DNA of 64,000 nucleotides from Haloprofundus halophilus (GCF_003439925.1 NZ_QQRR01000002.1:868001-932000); one strand, 5' to 3'; positions 4,699-53,051 are shown, numbered from the stretch's first letter. A program made the numbers and translations. The notes: generated by a model from the letters alone, not told the origin.

Positions 4699-5827
4699 GT
4701 CGCTGTGGCGGCGGTTCCCGGTCGTCCTGATGGCGCGACGGAATCTGACGCGAGCGCGGACGCGCTCGGCGCTGGCCATCGCCGCCATCGTCATCGGCGT
4801 CGTCGCCATCGCAACCCTGGGAATCGCGGGCGTCGCGTTCAAAGACGCCCAGTTCGAGACGCTCGGCTCCATCGGCAGCGACCTCCAAGTGTTCGCCGGC
4901 GAGGACGACGACGACGGCTACCTCACCGACGCCGACCTACGCCAGATGGAGCGCGCGACCGGCGACGCCGAACTCGTCCCGATGAAACAGCGCAACGCGA
5001 ACCTCGCGGTCGGACGGTCCGACGGGTCGGTGACGGTGTACGGGGTGGCCGACCCCGACGAGTTGTACACGGTCCGCGACGGGGCGATTCCGGGCAACTG
5101 GCGACGCGGGGCGCTCGTCGGCGCGACGCTCGCCGACCGCTACGGCCTCGAACCCGGAAACAAACTCGAACTCGACGGCGAGACGTATCGTGTCGCCGCC
5201 GTACTCGAAGACGAGGGCCAAGCGGCGGTCGCCAGTCCGAACGAGGCAGTGGTTCTCCCGCGGGCTACCTTCGACTCCGAAGGCTACGCACAGGTCGTCG
5301 TCCGCTCCGACGACGTCGAGGCGGCGAACGAGTCGGCGATGGCCATCCGCGACGCGTTCAACGGGCGCGAACAGCAGGTCAGCGTCTTCGAGCGCGGCGA
5401 GGTCTCCGAGCAGATCGACCAGGCGTTCGCGCAGGTCAACCTCTTTCTCGTGGGGTTGGGTGCGATCTCGCTGGTCGTCGCCGGGGTGAGCATCGCCAAC
5501 GTGATGCTGATGAGCGCCATCGAGCGACGCGAGGAGATCGGCGTGCTCCGCGCCGTCGGCTACGAGCGAGGCGACGTGCTACGCATCATGCTGACCGAGG
5601 CGACGCTGCTCGGCGTCGTCGGGGCACTGCTCGGCGTGCTCGTCAGTCTCGGGTTGGGATTAGTCATCAACGATGCGCTGCTCGGCGACCCGCTGGCGTT
5701 TACGGCCGAGGGACTTCGTTACGCGCTCTCGGGGTTCGTCTTCGGCGTCGCCGCCAGCGCGCTGGGCGGTCTCTACCCCGCGTGGAAAGCGTCGCGGCAG
5801 CGACCCGTCGACGCGCTCCGCGGGTAG
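4691..5827 (+). CDS. ABC transporter permease, MacB/FtsX family
   Basis: This 378-residue permease has the MacB layout: one N-terminal membrane helix (ARTRSALAIAAIVIGVVAIATLGIAGVAF), a periplasm-like extracellular MacB_PCD domain of about 200 residues, and three C-terminal helices of the FtsX domain, including the conserved VSIANVMLMSAIERREEIGVLRAVG segment. It overlaps the ATPase gene, which indicates translational coupling. With the upstream secreted protein it forms a three-gene export or surface-stress system. There is no clue to substrate. Confidence 0.93.
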   Translation: MFESLWRRFPVVLMARRNLTRARTRSALAIAAIVIGVVAIATLGIAGVAFKDAQFETLGSIGSDLQVFAGEDDDDGYLTDADLRQMERATGDAELVPMKQRNANLAVGRSDGSVTVYGVADPDELYTVRDGAIPGNWRRGALVGATLADRYGLEPGNKLELDGETYRVAAVLEDEGQAAVASPNEAVVLPRATFDSEGYAQVVVRSDDVEAANESAMAIRDAFNGREQQVSVFERGEVSEQIDQAFAQVNLFLVGLGAISLVVAGVSIANVMLMSAIERREEIGVLRAVGYERGDVLRIMLTEATLLGVVGALLGVLVSLGLGLVINDALLGDPLAFTAEGLRYALSGFVFGVAASALGGLYPAWKASRQRPVDALRG

Positions 5828-47378: not shown

Positions 47379-47387
47379 CCACGAGTG

Positions 47388-48410
47388 ATGACCGAACTCG
47401 TAGCCACGACGCCGGGGCTGTATCCGTTGCCCGACTGGGCGAAACAGCGGCTCTCGGAGTTGAAAGGCCACCAGAAAGGCGACCTCATCAGCGGCGACGA
47501 GGGGCCCGAAATCATCGACGCGTACGAGCAGGCGCGCGAAGAAGTCGTCGCCGACCAGCGGGACGCGAACCTCGACCGAGTCGTCGAGGGGCAGCTCCGC
47601 TGGGACGACAACCTCGCGCACCCGCTGACCGTCCACGACAGCGTCGAGACGGGCGGCATCGTCCGTTACTACGACAACAACAACTTCTACCGCGACCCGC
47701 GAGTCGTCGACGAACTCGGCTTCTCCGGCGACGTGGCGGCGGAGCTGAAAGCGACGACGGAGCTGCTCGACGGCGACGACTCGCTGCAGGCGGTCCTGCC
47801 CGGTCCGTACTCGCTTTCCGACCTCGCGACCGACGAGCACTACGGCGACGAGGCGGCGTTCCTGGACGCCGTGGCCGAGTTCCTCGCCGGCGAGGTCGAG
47901 GCGTTCCCCGAGCACGAGACGCTGTTCTTGCTGGAGCCGTCGCTCGTCGAGAACGCGCCCGGTGACGGCCTCGACGCGCGAGCGAGCGAGGCCGTCGACG
48001 CAGTCGCCGCCGCGACGGACGCCGACGTGGTCGTCCACAGCTACTGGGGCGCGCTGGAGGAGAAAGTGTACGCGCACCTGATGGACGCCGACGTCGACGC
48101 CATCGGCTTCGACGTGGTGTCGGGCGACCGCGACCAGACGTTGTACAACGTCAACGAGTACGGTACGAAAGACAGCGTCGCGCTCGGCCTCGTCGACGGC
48201 CAGAACACGCTCGTCGAATCGCCGGAGACCGTCCGCGACCGCATCGAGTGGGTGCAGGACCAGATTCCGGCACAGGAGTTCGACGCCGTCTACGCGACGA
48301 GCAACACCGAGCTGTTCTACCTGCCGGTGAACAAGTATCGAGAGAAGCTGACCGCGCTGGCCGAGGGCGTCGCCCTCGCTCGCGGCGAGGAGACGGAGGT
48401 ACAAGCATGA
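47388..48410 (+). CDS. MetE-like protein 1, lacking the zinc ligands
   Basis: This 340-residue protein has the MetE/UROD TIM-barrel fold typical of cobalamin-independent methionine synthase (GLYPLPDWAKQRLSEL, then VLPGPYSLSDLATD). At the positions of the catalytic zinc site it reads HSYWGAL instead of H-x-C, and TSNTELFYLPVNKY instead of the D-C-G-L motif, so zinc binding is lost. The following gene, overlapping by 4 bp, keeps the ligands. The two may form a split enzyme in which this partner plays the part of the N-terminal half. The ATG is preferred over an adjacent GTG. Confidence 0.87.
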   Translation: MTELVATTPGLYPLPDWAKQRLSELKGHQKGDLISGDEGPEIIDAYEQAREEVVADQRDANLDRVVEGQLRWDDNLAHPLTVHDSVETGGIVRYYDNNNFYRDPRVVDELGFSGDVAAELKATTELLDGDDSLQAVLPGPYSLSDLATDEHYGDEAAFLDAVAEFLAGEVEAFPEHETLFLLEPSLVENAPGDGLDARASEAVDAVAAATDADVVVHSYWGALEEKVYAHLMDADVDAIGFDVVSGDRDQTLYNVNEYGTKDSVALGLVDGQNTLVESPETVRDRIEWVQDQIPAQEFDAVYATSNTELFYLPVNKYREKLTALAEGVALARGEETEVQA

Positions 48411-49480
48411 GCCGAGACGCCGACAACAGAGCGCAGTTCCACCCCGAGAACCACGAGAACGACCACTTCCTCCTGACGACGGTCGTGGGGAGTTATCCGA
48501 AGCCGAAGTGGCTCAACCGCGCGAAAGACCTCTCGGAGGACGAGGAGGCGCGCTTCGACGCCGACAACCTCGCGGAGGCGTACGACGACGCCTCGGAGGT
48601 CATCACCCACGAGCACGAGCGCGCCGGACTCGACACCGTCGTCGACGGCGAGATGCGCAGAAACGAGATGGTCGAGTTCTTCGCGCACCGCATCGACGGC
48701 TACGAGTTCAACGGCCCGGTCAAGGTGTGGGGCCACAACTACTTCGACAAGCCGAGCGTCGCGAGCGAGGTCGAGTACGACGAACCGTGGCTGGTCGACG
48801 AGTTCGAGTTCACCCGCGACGTCGCCTCCCGGCCGGTCAAGGTCCCCATCACGGGGCCGTACACGCTGGCTAACTGGTCGTTCAACGAGGCGTACGAGAA
48901 CGAGGAGGAACTCGCGTACGACCTCGCCGACCTCGTCAACCTCGAAATCGAGAAACTCGTCGAAGCGGGCGCGCGCTACGTCCAGATAGACGAGCCCGCG
49001 CTGGCGACGACGCCCGACGACCACGCCATCGTCGGCGAGTGTCTCGAACGCATCGCCGACGGCATCCCCGACGAGGTCCGCATCGGCCTGCACGTCTGCT
49101 ACGGCGACTACTCGCGCATCTACCCCGAACTCAACGAGTTCCCCATCGACGAGTTCGACGTCGAACTCTGCAACGGCGACTACGAGCAGATAGACGTGTT
49201 CACCGAACCGGAATTCGAACCGGACCTCGCGCTCGGCGTCGTCGACGCGCACACCGCCGAAGTCGAACCCGTCGAGGAGATAAAAGAGAACATCAAACAG
49301 GGGCTGAAGGTCGTTCCGCCGGAGAAACTCACCATCTCGCCGGACTGCGGGCTCAAACTGCTGCCGCGCGACATCGCCTACGGCAAGATGGAGAACATGG
49401 TCACGGCGGCCCGCGAAGTCGAGGCGGAACTCGACGCGGGCGAAATCGATCTCGACGCCCCCGTCCCGACCGCCGACTGA
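48407..49480 (+). CDS. metE: Methionine synthase, cobalamin-independent (MetE C-terminal type)
   Basis: This 357-residue catalytic protein transfers a methyl group to homocysteine. The N-terminal LLTTVVGSYPKPKWL and ITGPYTLANWSF are typical. The zinc site is visible as IGLHVCYGDY (His, Cys) and ISPDCGLKLLPRD (Cys). Short archaeal MetE proteins of this kind cannot use methylfolate as the long bacterial form does, and the true methyl donor in archaea is debated. It is translationally coupled to the zinc-less paralogue (ATGA overlap). Confidence 0.92.
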   Translation: MSRDADNRAQFHPENHENDHFLLTTVVGSYPKPKWLNRAKDLSEDEEARFDADNLAEAYDDASEVITHEHERAGLDTVVDGEMRRNEMVEFFAHRIDGYEFNGPVKVWGHNYFDKPSVASEVEYDEPWLVDEFEFTRDVASRPVKVPITGPYTLANWSFNEAYENEEELAYDLADLVNLEIEKLVEAGARYVQIDEPALATTPDDHAIVGECLERIADGIPDEVRIGLHVCYGDYSRIYPELNEFPIDEFDVELCNGDYEQIDVFTEPEFEPDLALGVVDAHTAEVEPVEEIKENIKQGLKVVPPEKLTISPDCGLKLLPRDIAYGKMENMVTAAREVEAELDAGEIDLDAPVPTAD

Positions 49481-49752: not shown

Positions 49753-50592
49753 CTACTTCGCGACGTCGTGACTCTCATCTCCGGGAATCTGCCCGGAAGA
49801 TACGACGACACCGGACCCGGCGTCGTCGGTCGCGACGTGTGTTTCGCGCTGGCGTCCGACTCCGTGAGGGTCTGTTCCGTGCGGGCCGACTCCGTGAGAG
49901 TCTGCTCCGTGCGAGTGTCTGGCGGTGTGTACGCCGACCGTTGCGAGGACGCCGCCGCTCAGACTGAGCGCGACGACACGCACCGCCGGCGGCAGCACCG
50001 CGACCGCCGCGCCGCCGCCGACGGCTCCGAGGACGAAAACCGCCTGAACCGCGAGAACGGCGGCGACGGCCCGTCGGCGGCTTCGCGCGCCGTAGAGAGC
50101 GCCGACGGCCGCGGTCTCCCCGGCGGCGTGGAGCGCGAGCACCAGCGCGCCCGCGACGCCGACGACCACGTCGGTGGCCGCGGCGGCGGCGAGGAGCCCC
50201 CCTTCGAGCCCCCGGTGGACGAGAACCGCTCCGAACGCCGCGTCGCCGTCGACTTCGCGACCCTCGCGCCGATACAGCAGGGCGGTCGCCGCCGCGCCGC
50301 CGGCGCTACCGCCGAGAAGCCCGAAAAGCGGGTCGTCGAAGAGGGCGACCAGGACGGCACCCCCGCCGAGGAGAACGAGCAACGCCGCGAGCATTCGAGT
50401 CGGCAGTCCCGATGCGGCCGCGCGACGCGCGACGGCGACGCCCGACACGCCGACGGGAGCGGGGACTGCGAGGACGGTGACGACGACGGCGACGACCGTC
50501 GCGGCGGCGACGACCGCGAGAGCGGCGGGTCGGTCGCGGGTTCGGACGCGACCGGAACGACTGTCGGGGAACCGACGGCGGTTCCGGGTCAC
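49753..50592 (-). CDS. ZIP-like metal transporter with a His-rich C-terminal tail
   Basis: This 279-residue membrane protein has about seven hydrophobic stretches. Two helices carry ZIP-type metal motifs: VHRGLEGGLLA (H-x-x-x-E-G) and LALHAAGETAAVGAL (H-x-x-x-E). The C-terminal tail is His-rich (HSHGADSHGVGPHGTDPHG), a common metal sensor or chelating region. Family membership is inferred from these motifs, not from strong similarity. The GTG start overlaps the ferredoxin stop (GTGA); a GTG two codons earlier is possible. Last gene of the SBP56 operon. Confidence 0.65.
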   Translation of the reverse strand: MTRNRRRFPDSRSGRVRTRDRPAALAVVAAATVVAVVVTVLAVPAPVGVSGVAVARRAAASGLPTRMLAALLVLLGGGAVLVALFDDPLFGLLGGSAGGAAATALLYRREGREVDGDAAFGAVLVHRGLEGGLLAAAAATDVVVGVAGALVLALHAAGETAAVGALYGARSRRRAVAAVLAVQAVFVLGAVGGGAAVAVLPPAVRVVALSLSGGVLATVGVHTARHSHGADSHGVGPHGTDPHGVGRQRETHVATDDAGSGVVVSSGQIPGDESHDVAK

Positions 50593-50906
50593 CGCCACGG
50601 GTTCTCCGTTAGTTCGGCCTGCACGTCGGCTCCGACCGCGAGACGGCAGTCCGTGCGCGGTTCGGCGACGCAACAGAGCACGTATCCCCGCCGGCGCTGT
50701 CGCTCCTTGAGCGCTCGCGGCGGACGACGGTACTCGACCTCGCCCGCTCGCAACCGGCCGGTACACGTCCCGCACGCGCCGGTCCGACAGCCGAACGGGA
50801 GCGCGACGCCCGCACGCTCGGCCGCGGTCAGGACCGTCTCTCCGGGTTCGGCGTCGACGGTCGCTTCCCTCCCGTCGCGCCAACCCAGCGTAACTCTCGC
50901 GGTCAC
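50589..50906 (-). CDS. Plant-type [2Fe-2S] ferredoxin
   Basis: This 105-residue protein has the [2Fe-2S] motif CRTGACGTC (C-x4-C-x2-C) and the distal Cys in YVLCCVAEPRTDC. The motif spacing is that of plant-type ferredoxins. It lacks the haloarchaeal acidic N-terminal domain of the main ferredoxin and is unusually rich in Arg, so it is probably a dedicated electron carrier for a partner. It starts with GTG one base after the SBP56 stop and overlaps the ZIP-like gene, so all three are coupled. Confidence 0.9.
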   Translation of the reverse strand: MTARVTLGWRDGREATVDAEPGETVLTAAERAGVALPFGCRTGACGTCTGRLRAGEVEYRRPPRALKERQRRRGYVLCCVAEPRTDCRLAVGADVQAELTENPWR

Positions 50907-50907
50907 A

Positions 50908-52356
50908 TCATATCCACACGTCGCTGGTGCAGTCCGTGTCCGGCCAGCGGATCTCGTGGGCGCGCGCCGGTCCGGCGGGCATCTCGCCGAAGTCGACGAG
51001 GAACTCCTCGTCGAGCGTCATCGTCCCCTTCCGGGGATCGACGTCCGCCTTCAACATCACCGACCCGCGCTCGGCCTCCTCCGGGAAGAACTGGTTGTCC
51101 CACGTCGAGTACAGCGACGTGGTGAAGTACAGTCGCTCGCCGTCGACCGACAGCTGGAGCATCTGCGGCCCGGCGGCGAGTTGGCGGTCCGCGACCGGGG
51201 CCTCCTCGCCGAAGAGACCGCCGACGGCGAGCGTGTCGACCAGCCGCGGATGCATCGGGTCCGAGACGTCGTACATGTGGGCCTCGCCGTGGAGCCAACA
51301 CGAGAGGAAGAGGTATCTGTCGTCCATCGAGAGGAGGAGGTCGGTGATAACCCCGGGGGCGGGGTCGTCCATCCCCTCGGCCTCCCGCGGTTCGATGTCG
51401 ATGACTTTCTCGGCCGCCCACTCGCCGTCGCGCTCGTAGGCGTAGAAGACGTTCGACGAGAGCGCCGCGCCGACGAACGCGCCGGCCCCCTCCGGCGAGT
51501 GGAAGAACCGAACTTCGAGCGGAAGGTGACCCTCTTCGCCGAGGTCGAGCGTCTGTTTCACCGTCCGGTTCTCCCAGTCCCAGACGTGGATGCGACGGCC
51601 GTAGTTGCCGGCCTCGACGTCAGCCGGGTCGAAGCCGGGCTGGTACGTCTTCGGAGCGGCCCACTCCGAGGAGATCATCACGTTGCGCCGGGGTTGGTAC
51701 CAGAAGTCGTAGTTCATCTCTATCTGGTCCGGCGACTCCCAGCGACCGACGATGTCGAACTCCTCGTTCAGTTCGAGGAACCCTCCCGGGAGTTCGCCGT
51801 CGGCGTTGCCGAGCATGCTCACGATAATCGTGCCGCCGGGCGCGCAGTGGACTGTGTGGGGCGCGGAGAGGTCGTACTCGAACACCTCCTCCGGTTCGAT
51901 CACTTTCGTGATTTCGGGGTGTCGCGGATCATCGGTGTCGACGATGTGGATCCGCGAAGAGCGCTGGCCCGGGACGACGAGATACCGTCGGTCGAGTCCC
52001 TCGACGTGGCAGGAGGACGAACAGGCGTTCCAGCCGAAGTGGTGGAGCTCGTCGCCCTTGTTCGGCATCTCCATCCGGTCCGTGACCTCGCCGTACGTCG
52101 CCGAGTCGGGGTCGAGGTCGACGACCGCGAGGAAGTCCGGCGCGTCGACGTCCGTTCCGACGTAGAGCGCCGGAACGTAGGCGACGGTCTCGGGTTCGGA
52201 TTCCTCGATTGCGGCCTGCGGGGTCGCATAGCCCGGACCGCGGTGGTCGTGGTGGTCGTGGTGGTCGTGGTGGTCGTGGTGGTCGTGGTGGTTGTGGTGG
52301 TCGTGATCTGCGTGATGGTCCTGCGCCGAATCTTGTGGTTTGTTAGCACTCCCCAT
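50908..52356 (-). CDS. SBP56/methanethiol oxidase family protein with a poly-His-Asp N-terminal tail
   Basis: This 482-residue beta-propeller protein has the SBP56 hallmarks: HHFGWNACSSSC (one Ser more than the metazoan C-S-S-C), PHTVHCAPGG, YDFWYQPRRNVMISSEW, HLPLEVRFFH, GPQMLQLSVDGERLYFTTSLYSTWDNQFFP and a C-terminal AHEIRWPDTDCTSDVW. Family members oxidise methanethiol to formaldehyde, sulfide and peroxide, and the bacterial enzyme needs copper. Residues 13-40 are a run of His-Asp-His units, a probable metal-loading tail. No signal peptide is visible. A GAGTTAAGAAA promoter 27 bp upstream gives a leaderless start. Confidence 0.92.
   Translation of the reverse strand: MGSANKPQDSAQDHHADHDHHNHHDHHDHHDHHDHHDHRGPGYATPQAAIEESEPETVAYVPALYVGTDVDAPDFLAVVDLDPDSATYGEVTDRMEMPNKGDELHHFGWNACSSSCHVEGLDRRYLVVPGQRSSRIHIVDTDDPRHPEITKVIEPEEVFEYDLSAPHTVHCAPGGTIIVSMLGNADGELPGGFLELNEEFDIVGRWESPDQIEMNYDFWYQPRRNVMISSEWAAPKTYQPGFDPADVEAGNYGRRIHVWDWENRTVKQTLDLGEEGHLPLEVRFFHSPEGAGAFVGAALSSNVFYAYERDGEWAAEKVIDIEPREAEGMDDPAPGVITDLLLSMDDRYLFLSCWLHGEAHMYDVSDPMHPRLVDTLAVGGLFGEEAPVADRQLAAGPQMLQLSVDGERLYFTTSLYSTWDNQFFPEEAERGSVMLKADVDPRKGTMTLDEEFLVDFGEMPAGPARAHEIRWPDTDCTSDVWI
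52239..52311. repeat. 9-bp tandem repeat encoding the His-Asp tail
   Basis: About eight near-perfect copies of ggtcgtggt lie in a row; on the coding strand they read CAC-GAC-CAC and encode HDH units. One copy has a T-for-C change. The array can expand or shrink by whole codons, so tail length may vary between strains. Confidence 0.93.
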
Positions 52357-52460: not shown

Positions 52461-53051
52461 TCACGTCCGTCGTTTGTCCCGCTCCGAGGCCCACCGAACC
52501 CCCGCCCCGAGGAGAGCCGTCAGCGGGAAGTCGAACCTCGGCTCCTCTCTCTTCCAGTCGACGACCCACTCGCCCCTCGCGTCCCTTCTGACGGGGACTT
52601 CGGTCCCCAAGAGCTCCGAGAGGTCGCTCGGCGGGACGCCGTACCTTCGAAGGACCGCTTCGAGTCTCGACCCCCCGTCGAGTCGCGCGGGGAGCGGGAA
52701 CCACTCGCTGACGACGGGGCGGTCGGGCGTCGGAATCGCCACGTCGACGCGAACGCCGTCTACCGGGTTTCTGGCGTACGCCGCCGGGCTTCGGCCGGGG
52801 CGGCGGCGCTCCGGTTCGACGGCGCGGACGACACCTGCGTCGACGTGGCGTTCGAGCGCGAGCGATTCGAGGTGACGCTCCACGTCGCCGAGGCTTCGAC
52901 GGTCCGGGACGACGGTCGTCGTTCTCGCGGTGAGCGCGCTCGCGACTCGTGCGAGCAGGAGCGCACCCGTCAAGACGACGAAGACGTACCCGACGAAGAC
53001 GACGACGAGGAGTATCGCGAACAGGACGAACAGTTGTGAGATGTCGACCAT
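52461..53051 (-). CDS. Single-pass membrane protein of unknown function
   Basis: This 196-residue protein begins with a strong membrane helix (LFVLFAILLVVVFVGYVFVVLTGALLLARVA) and continues as a soluble, charged domain (LGDVERHLESLALERHVDAGVVRAVEPERRRPGR; later VVSEWFPLPARLDGGSRLEAVLRRYGVPPSDLSELLG). I recognise no domain. It lies upstream of the SBP56 operon on the same strand but has its own spacing, so co-transcription is unclear. Confidence 0.7.
   Translation of the reverse strand: MVDISQLFVLFAILLVVVFVGYVFVVLTGALLLARVASALTARTTTVVPDRRSLGDVERHLESLALERHVDAGVVRAVEPERRRPGRSPAAYARNPVDGVRVDVAIPTPDRPVVSEWFPLPARLDGGSRLEAVLRRYGVPPSDLSELLGTEVPVRRDARGEWVVDWKREEPRFDFPLTALLGAGVRWASERDKRRT

Follow-up and report, generated by a model that had tools for sequence, protein, structure and literature searches.

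In Haloprofundus halophilus, a gene for an SBP56 protein of the SELENBP1 type is followed directly by a gene for a plant-type [2Fe-2S] ferredoxin and then by a gene for a membrane protein with a predicted ZIP fold. The enzyme and the ferredoxin are a conserved, co-evolving pair. This pair is the core unit of the operon, and it is no haloarchaeal speciality, as several bacterial phyla have it. All three genes are encoded on the minus strand, at positions 49753-52356 of the window, meaning the whole stretch of 64,000 nucleotides that was analysed (GCF_003439925.1 NZ_QQRR01000002.1:868001-932000). A single base (50907) separates the SBP56 and ferredoxin genes, and the ferredoxin stop and the start of the third gene share 4 bp, GTGA (50589-50592). 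Gene order, strand, gap and overlap are all as given in a preliminary description made from the sequence alone.

50908..52356, minus strand: SBP56/SELENBP1-type protein (ATG start, 482 amino acids) with matches to PF05694 and PDB 2ECE and the conserved copper and activity residues; by its sequence a probable copper-dependent thiol (methanethiol) oxidase
50589..50906, minus strand: SBP56-associated plant-type [2Fe-2S] ferredoxin (GTG start, 105 amino acids) with a PF00111 match and a conserved C-terminal NP(F/W) tail
49753..50592, minus strand: ZIP-fold membrane protein (GTG start, 279 amino acids) with eight predicted helices and a fold match to BbZIP; candidate metal supplier

The SBP56-ferredoxin pair and the types of SBP56

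The haloarchaeal sample consisted of 392 genomes, 137 of which contained SBP56, and 100 SBP56 loci from eight family codes were compared. In 92 of the 100 loci the next gene downstream, in the same orientation, was the ferredoxin gene, and its start was no more than 60 bp from the SBP56 stop in every locus measured (91/91). The linkage was also seen in the reverse direction, as 115 of the 123 closest ferredoxin relatives in the 392 genomes adjoin SBP56. These counts, together with the bacterial loci described below, rule out a chance neighbourhood or the general compactness of haloarchaeal genomes, and the linkage is far above chance. The same figures uphold the earlier claim that the ferredoxin is a dedicated partner. 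When the three-gene order was searched for in haloarchaea the proposed unit was upheld in part, because the ferredoxin is nearly always there but the ZIP-like gene is optional (31/100).

Outside the haloarchaea, the pair was found in cyanobacteria (loci of the named genomes of Scytonema, Microseira and a Xenococcaceae), in alphaproteobacteria (Aurantimonas, Pseudorhodobacter) and Granulosicoccaceae, in gammaproteobacteria, and in metagenome-assembled genomes (MAGs) of Acidimicrobiia, Chloroflexi and one filed under Bacteroidetes. In the public annotation of Phaeobacter and Paracoccus, a 'selenium-binding family protein' is followed by a '2Fe-2S iron-sulfur cluster-binding protein'. In one cyanobacterial genome (L295) only a C-terminal SBP56 remnant is left, and it is still followed by a ferredoxin with the NP tail. 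On the SBP56 tree, linkage to the ferredoxin takes 7 changes compared to 36 when the labels are shuffled, though this is a quick tree with a long MtoX branch. Distances between the enzymes and between the ferredoxins were correlated (r = 0.87 overall, 0.53 within haloarchaea and 0.78 within bacteria), and none of 999 permutations gave a correlation as high.

To lessen selection bias, genomes were also drawn from three bacterial classes with the seed genomes left out. Among the full-length SBP56 proteins of the GPGY (SELENBP1-like) type in these samples, 9 of 11 had an adjacent ferredoxin, and among the FYPSP-type and MtoX-type proteins the count was 0 of 31; for MtoX-type genes taken separately it was 0 of 18. 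The SBP56 family splits into types with different accessory genes, either the ferredoxin or SCO1/MauG. The FYPSP type is a third SBP56 type with the N-terminus PDPxFYPSPRM, approximately 40-45% identical to the window protein (L242-L248, L299-L304, L237), for which no adjacent ferredoxin was found in these loci and no partner is known. Planctomycete SBP56 proteins with a signal of the twin-arginine translocation (Tat) type (RRDFL) also had no adjacent ferredoxin, which is as expected if the ferredoxin partner is cytosolic.

The ferredoxin matches PF00111 (Fer2; E 1.3e-19, 70 bits against a cut-off of 21) and has the cluster pattern C40-x4-C45-x2-C48...C79, in which all four cysteines are invariant in 51 relatives. 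The C-terminal tail ending in NP(F/W) is common to SBP56-linked ferredoxins, and the plant-type ferredoxins in the PDB do not align to it. An extra cysteine (C87) was considered as a further hallmark, but it was dropped because the Thermosynechococcus ferredoxin carries C87 too, and the tail was kept. In locus L100 (4505-4882), in L067 and in many loci of family code f7, SBP56 is flanked by two ferredoxins, as a second, paralogous one that ends in SPW precedes it in the same orientation. Three genomes (G106, G268, G081) have the SBP56-type ferredoxin though no SBP56 gene is listed for them; the G081 assembly is incomplete.

Active-site residues and leader of the enzyme

The window SBP56 matches PF05694 over its whole length (E 3.7e-195, 649 bits against a cut-off of 34; residues 38-482 on profile positions 2-453) and also matches the Sulfolobus structure PDB 2ECE (E 4e-111). 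The SCO1/SenC and MauG genes that characterise the MtoX operon are absent beside it, its neighbours being the ferredoxin and the ZIP-fold protein. The features of the enzyme discussed below are as follows.

52243..52317, minus strand: His/Asp-rich N-terminal leader, residues 14-38 (16 His) in the translation, just before the GPGY motif
52039..52044, minus strand: His105-His106 (DELHH), predicted copper ligands, invariant in 107 SBP56 proteins; the motif corresponds to His73/74 of human SELENBP1 (PMC10362175)
51844..51858, minus strand: HTVHC with His167, His170 and Cys171, predicted copper ligands, invariant in haloarchaeal alignment A2; the motif corresponds to His137/140 of human SELENBP1 (PMC10362175)
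50929..50931, minus strand: Cys476 near the C-terminus, at the position of Cys-S-S-CH3 in Rhodobacteraceae cluster 1 enzymes (PMC10936201)

In the alignment of 107 SBP56 proteins, H105, H106, H167, D217, E281 and H467 were invariant, as was H170 except in the five members of the MtoX group, and the His, Asp and Glu positions were conserved likewise within 36 haloarchaeal proteins. D217 and E281 presumably correspond to D189 and E252 of SELENBP1, as judged by motif. Activity of human SELENBP1 is copper-dependent and requires each of H73, H74, H137, H140, D189 and E252 (PMC10362175). Compared at the sequence level, the window SBP56 thus retains those residues on which the methanethiol oxidase activity of the human protein is known to depend.

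The three cysteine motifs of the cluster 1 bacterial enzymes (GWNACS, HTVHC and GGDCS/T; PMC10936201) are all present in the window SBP56. In the cluster 1 enzymes from Rhodobacteraceae, the last of the three cysteines bears the Cys-S-S-CH3 intermediate (PMC10936201). A cysteine at position 476 was found in 33/33 haloarchaeal and 25/26 ferredoxin-linked bacterial SBP56 proteins. As a marker that tracks ferredoxin linkage, however, Cys476 worked only in part, because the position is mostly Ser in planctomycetes yet other unlinked groups retain the Cys. The ferredoxin-linked enzymes have conserved Trp residues at positions 232 and 419.

The preliminary description had pointed out His-rich ends on both the enzyme and the ZIP-like protein. 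Both are real, but they differ in reach, as the ZIP-like tail is restricted to the window's genus while His-rich leaders precede the GPGY motif in nearly all of the 100 haloarchaeal SBP56 copies, the His-Asp run of the window protein being the longest of the series. Many bacterial relatives have CC at the site of the leader, and the N-terminus of human SELENBP1 has Cys5-x-x-Cys8 (PMC10362175). Taken together, these make the leader look like an exchangeable soft-metal patch and no private feature of the window genome.

The third gene and the neighbourhood

A ZIP-like gene follows in 31 of the 100 haloarchaeal SBP56 loci, a common but not obligatory third member. Of the 392 genomes, 43 have a member of the family, and in 30 of the 34 strongest matches the gene adjoins SBP56. 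The remaining four (G293, G257, G367, G370) are second ZIP-like copies located 5-6 kb from the first. A tblastn search of plasmid records with P0003 found no relative of the third gene; diverged plasmid copies exist (L235, L236). In haloarchaea the gene is annotated 'hypothetical protein'.

The assignment to ZIP proteins, which the preliminary description had made from the sequence, was not visible with family models. The third protein has no Pfam or NCBIfam match, including PF02535 (ZIP), which was found weakly in 1 of 30 relatives (E 0.0015). A PDB profile search was uninformative as well, and only the fold search succeeded. AlphaFold models had a predicted local distance difference test (pLDDT) score of 75 for the window protein and 83 for a relative (L055). 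The window model has eight predicted helices and is matched best by BbZIP (Z 14.8, root-mean-square deviation 3.8, 194 aligned residues). All of its top eight PDB matches were BbZIP (Z 12.0-14.8) and the next, unrelated match had a Z of 8.0; for the L055 model the values were 9.6-12.3 for BbZIP versus 7.8 for unrelated structures. These predicted structures, with BbZIP alone at the top of the search, support a ZIP fold for the third protein.

50200..50217, minus strand: HRGLEG (His126-Arg127-xx-Glu130-Gly131), first metal-site motif of the ZIP-like protein; H126, R127, E130 and G131 invariant in 30 relatives
50116..50130, minus strand: HAAGE (His155-xxx-Glu159), second metal-site motif of the same protein, with H155 and E159 unchanged across 30 relatives
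49861..49929, minus strand: His-rich tail (residues 222-244) at the C-terminus of the ZIP-like protein, seen in alignment A1 in no genus but that of the window (window and G144)

The HRxxEG and HxxxE motifs sit in two neighbouring helices of the model, as in ZIP proteins. H126, E130, H155 and E159 would correspond to H177, E181, Q207 and E211 of the primary transport site of BbZIP, as equated by motif spacing only (PMC9873690). Most members of the family have a signal-like start, then AHG and a Cys/His loop ahead of HRxxEG. In the proteins from the window and its sister genome the loop ligands are lost, and a His-rich C-terminal tail is found instead. The window protein is also without approximately 38 near-N-terminal residues (AHE and one hydrophobic stretch) that the protein from the sister genome G144 (L046) has.

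The third position is occupied differently in some alphaproteobacteria. A PF09948 (PpoB2) protein is encoded there in Paracoccus, a Rhodobacteraceae MAG and a Rhizobiaceae-group genome, and the start of these genes overlaps the ferredoxin stop by 4 bp. PpoB2 passes copper to a tyrosinase (PMC2855505). The presence of two unrelated membrane metal proteins in one slot argues that the third slot may serve metal supply. A three-sequence model found no PpoB2-like protein in haloarchaeal loci and no kinship between ZIP and PpoB2.

Upstream of the SBP56 unit are a nucleoside diphosphate kinase gene and what appear to be genes for ribosomal proteins, and a single short gene for a membrane-anchored protein is in between (52461-53051). 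Downstream, two adjoining methionine-synthase-like genes (MetE domains) lie on the plus strand at 47385-49480, convergent with the unit. Relatives of these genes within about 5 kb of SBP56 were seen in just five named loci of the 100 (L046, L050, L054, L079, L082), and a conserved methionine synthase neighbourhood was rejected because it is seen in few loci only.

Proposed mechanism, alternatives and related systems

The reading favoured here, with modest confidence, is that the operon encodes a copper-dependent SELENBP1-type thiol oxidase, a dedicated ferredoxin and a metal-supplying ZIP-fold membrane protein. For the substrate, the metal, the direction of electron flow and the transfer of metal, we infer the following scheme. 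The cytosolic SBP56 would oxidise a thiol, most likely methanethiol, to formaldehyde and either sulfide or sulfane sulfur. The metal would be held by the His cluster H105, H106, H167, H170 and H467 together with D217 and E281, after being supplied by the ZIP-fold membrane protein and gathered or received by the flexible His-rich N-terminus. The ferredoxin would swap single electrons with the metal/Cys centre, most likely as an electron donor that keeps or loads copper as Cu(I) and clears an enzyme-bound methyl disulfide or persulfide; alternatively, it might accept electrons from thiol oxidation. Electron delivery is favoured over an obligatory acceptor role because relatives are active in vitro without the ferredoxin, though this is a matter of judgement.

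The genes for sulfur and formaldehyde metabolism next to two of the bacterial copies are consistent with a methanethiol reaction. In Paracoccus an S-(hydroxymethyl)glutathione dehydrogenase gene is near the pair. On a Phaeobacter inhibens plasmid (L233, 5704-7580) the pair is followed by coenzyme A (CoA)-binding, rhodanese and metallo-beta-lactamase (MBL)-fold genes, and this gene set is possibly a route from methanethiol to oxidised sulfur.

Several points weigh against the favoured reading. Eight of the 100 haloarchaeal loci keep SBP56 and the ZIP-like gene with no ferredoxin there, and several Nostocales have no ferredoxin beside SBP56. The window SBP56 scores 140.7 bits on the NCBIfam MtoX equivalog model NF052453, far short of its cut-off of 650. 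Asn178 of the second metal site of BbZIP is replaced by an invariant Arg in the ZIP-like family, and the usual cargo of ZIP proteins is zinc, iron or manganese, not copper. Among the open-licence papers, to which the literature search was confined, no activity, metal-content or expression data were found for a haloarchaeal SBP56 member. Additionally, human SELENBP1 and the Rhodobacteraceae enzymes need no added ferredoxin for activity when purified from E. coli (PMC10362175, PMC10936201), which means that not every turnover requires the ferredoxin. As for the eight ferredoxin-less haloarchaeal loci, the seven included in the SBP56 tree group there as a single clade, and the nearest relative of this clade, L112, has a truncated ferredoxin behind SBP56 without the first three cluster cysteines (4835-4978, minus strand), likely a decay intermediate. 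The clade and the truncated copy together look like a single loss event. Several genomes of this clade hold another SBP56 locus with a ferredoxin.

It is rather unlikely, but worth weighing, that the ferredoxin is needed for maturation and not for turnover, with one-time electrons that load Cu(I) or build or reset a protein-derived cofactor in place of the SCO1/SenC and MauG of MtoX. A Trp-based cofactor has been proposed for MtoX, whose operons bear SCO1/SenC and MauG instead (PMC5739008), and no such ferredoxin was found beside any of the 18 MtoX-type genes. The third genes resemble metal-handling proteins, and recombinant relatives, once made, function without ferredoxin (PMC10362175). However, enzymes made in E. 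coli without a cognate ferredoxin are already active, and despite the conservation of Trp232 and Trp419 the cofactor is hypothetical, since the solved structure 2ECE contains neither copper nor a cofactor of this kind (PMC5739008).

A role of the operon in metal or selenium stress, with the His-leader SBP56 storing or buffering Cu, Zn or Se, the ZIP-like protein moving metal and thiol oxidation being minor, would explain the His-rich leaders in nearly all haloarchaeal copies, the ZIP fold and the His tail in the window's genus. This is improbable, because the residues of the active site do not vary, the ferredoxin accompanies SBP56 more often than the ZIP-like gene does (92/100 versus 31/100) and some bacterial copies adjoin sulfur and formaldehyde genes. 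Those same genes, the rhodanese and MBL-fold genes in Phaeobacter and the dehydrogenase gene in Paracoccus, could also be taken to mean that the ferredoxin serves downstream processing of sulfide, sulfane sulfur or formaldehyde without touching SBP56. Such genes follow in few of the examined loci, however, while the constant, co-evolving pair is the enzyme and the ferredoxin alone, and a purely downstream role is very improbable.

Earlier work has already described the SBP56 family and its dependence on copper, as well as the MtoX operon with SCO1/MauG. No report of the SBP56-ferredoxin pairing or of the ZIP-fold third gene was found in the open-licence literature, where absence is no proof, and this agrees with the earlier statement that such a system had not been described in haloarchaea. 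SELENBP1 and the Rhodobacteraceae cluster 1 enzymes share with the window protein the SBP56 family, the DELHH and HxxHC motifs, the three cluster 1 Cys motifs and an N-terminal soft-metal patch; the window differs in having a His-rich leader in place of the Cys pair and a ferredoxin gene directly downstream, a gene that goes unmentioned in the papers found on the human and bacterial enzymes. Hyphomicrobium MtoX belongs to the same superfamily, has equivalents of His105, 106, 167 and 467 and is in an operon with dedicated metal/redox partners, but these are SCO1/SenC and MauG, and MtoX-type proteins are without Cys112, 171 and 476.

The third protein resembles BbZIP and other ZIP transporters in its predicted eight-helix fold and in HxxxEG plus a second pair four residues apart, matching the primary transport site, but it has no significant PF02535 match and has the invariant Arg at BbZIP Asn178. 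The operon also resembles PpoB1-PpoB2, a Marinomonas tyrosinase with its membrane copper chaperone, in that a copper oxidase is encoded with a membrane metal-transfer protein, and PpoB2-family third genes are found in some bacterial SBP56-ferredoxin operons; the haloarchaeal third protein, however, is ZIP-fold and has no sequence relation to PpoB2. The ferredoxin has the domain and cluster Cys spacing of plant-type [2Fe-2S] ferredoxins such as that of Thermosynechococcus, but differs in the extra conserved NP(F/W) tail and the constant SBP56 neighbourhood.

The products of SBP56 enzymes are disputed, with sulfide and H2O2 reported in one study (PMC10362175) and sulfane sulfur without H2O2 in another (PMC10936201). 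A wider proposal, which is possible but on the doubtful side, is that SELENBP1-type enzymes are ferredoxin-coupled, such that in the physiological reaction a dedicated [2Fe-2S] ferredoxin would exchange electrons with the copper/Cys centre, and H2O2 formation by the purified human enzyme would be a side reaction without the partner. If this is true, ferredoxin coupling of SELENBP1-type enzymes may hold in other domains of life. For the haloarchaeal ZIP-fold family, which has no annotation, the data also suggest a first function. Finally, a ferredoxin that stays with the SELENBP1-like type across archaea and bacteria is a concrete missing partner, with which the fate of the electrons becomes directly testable.

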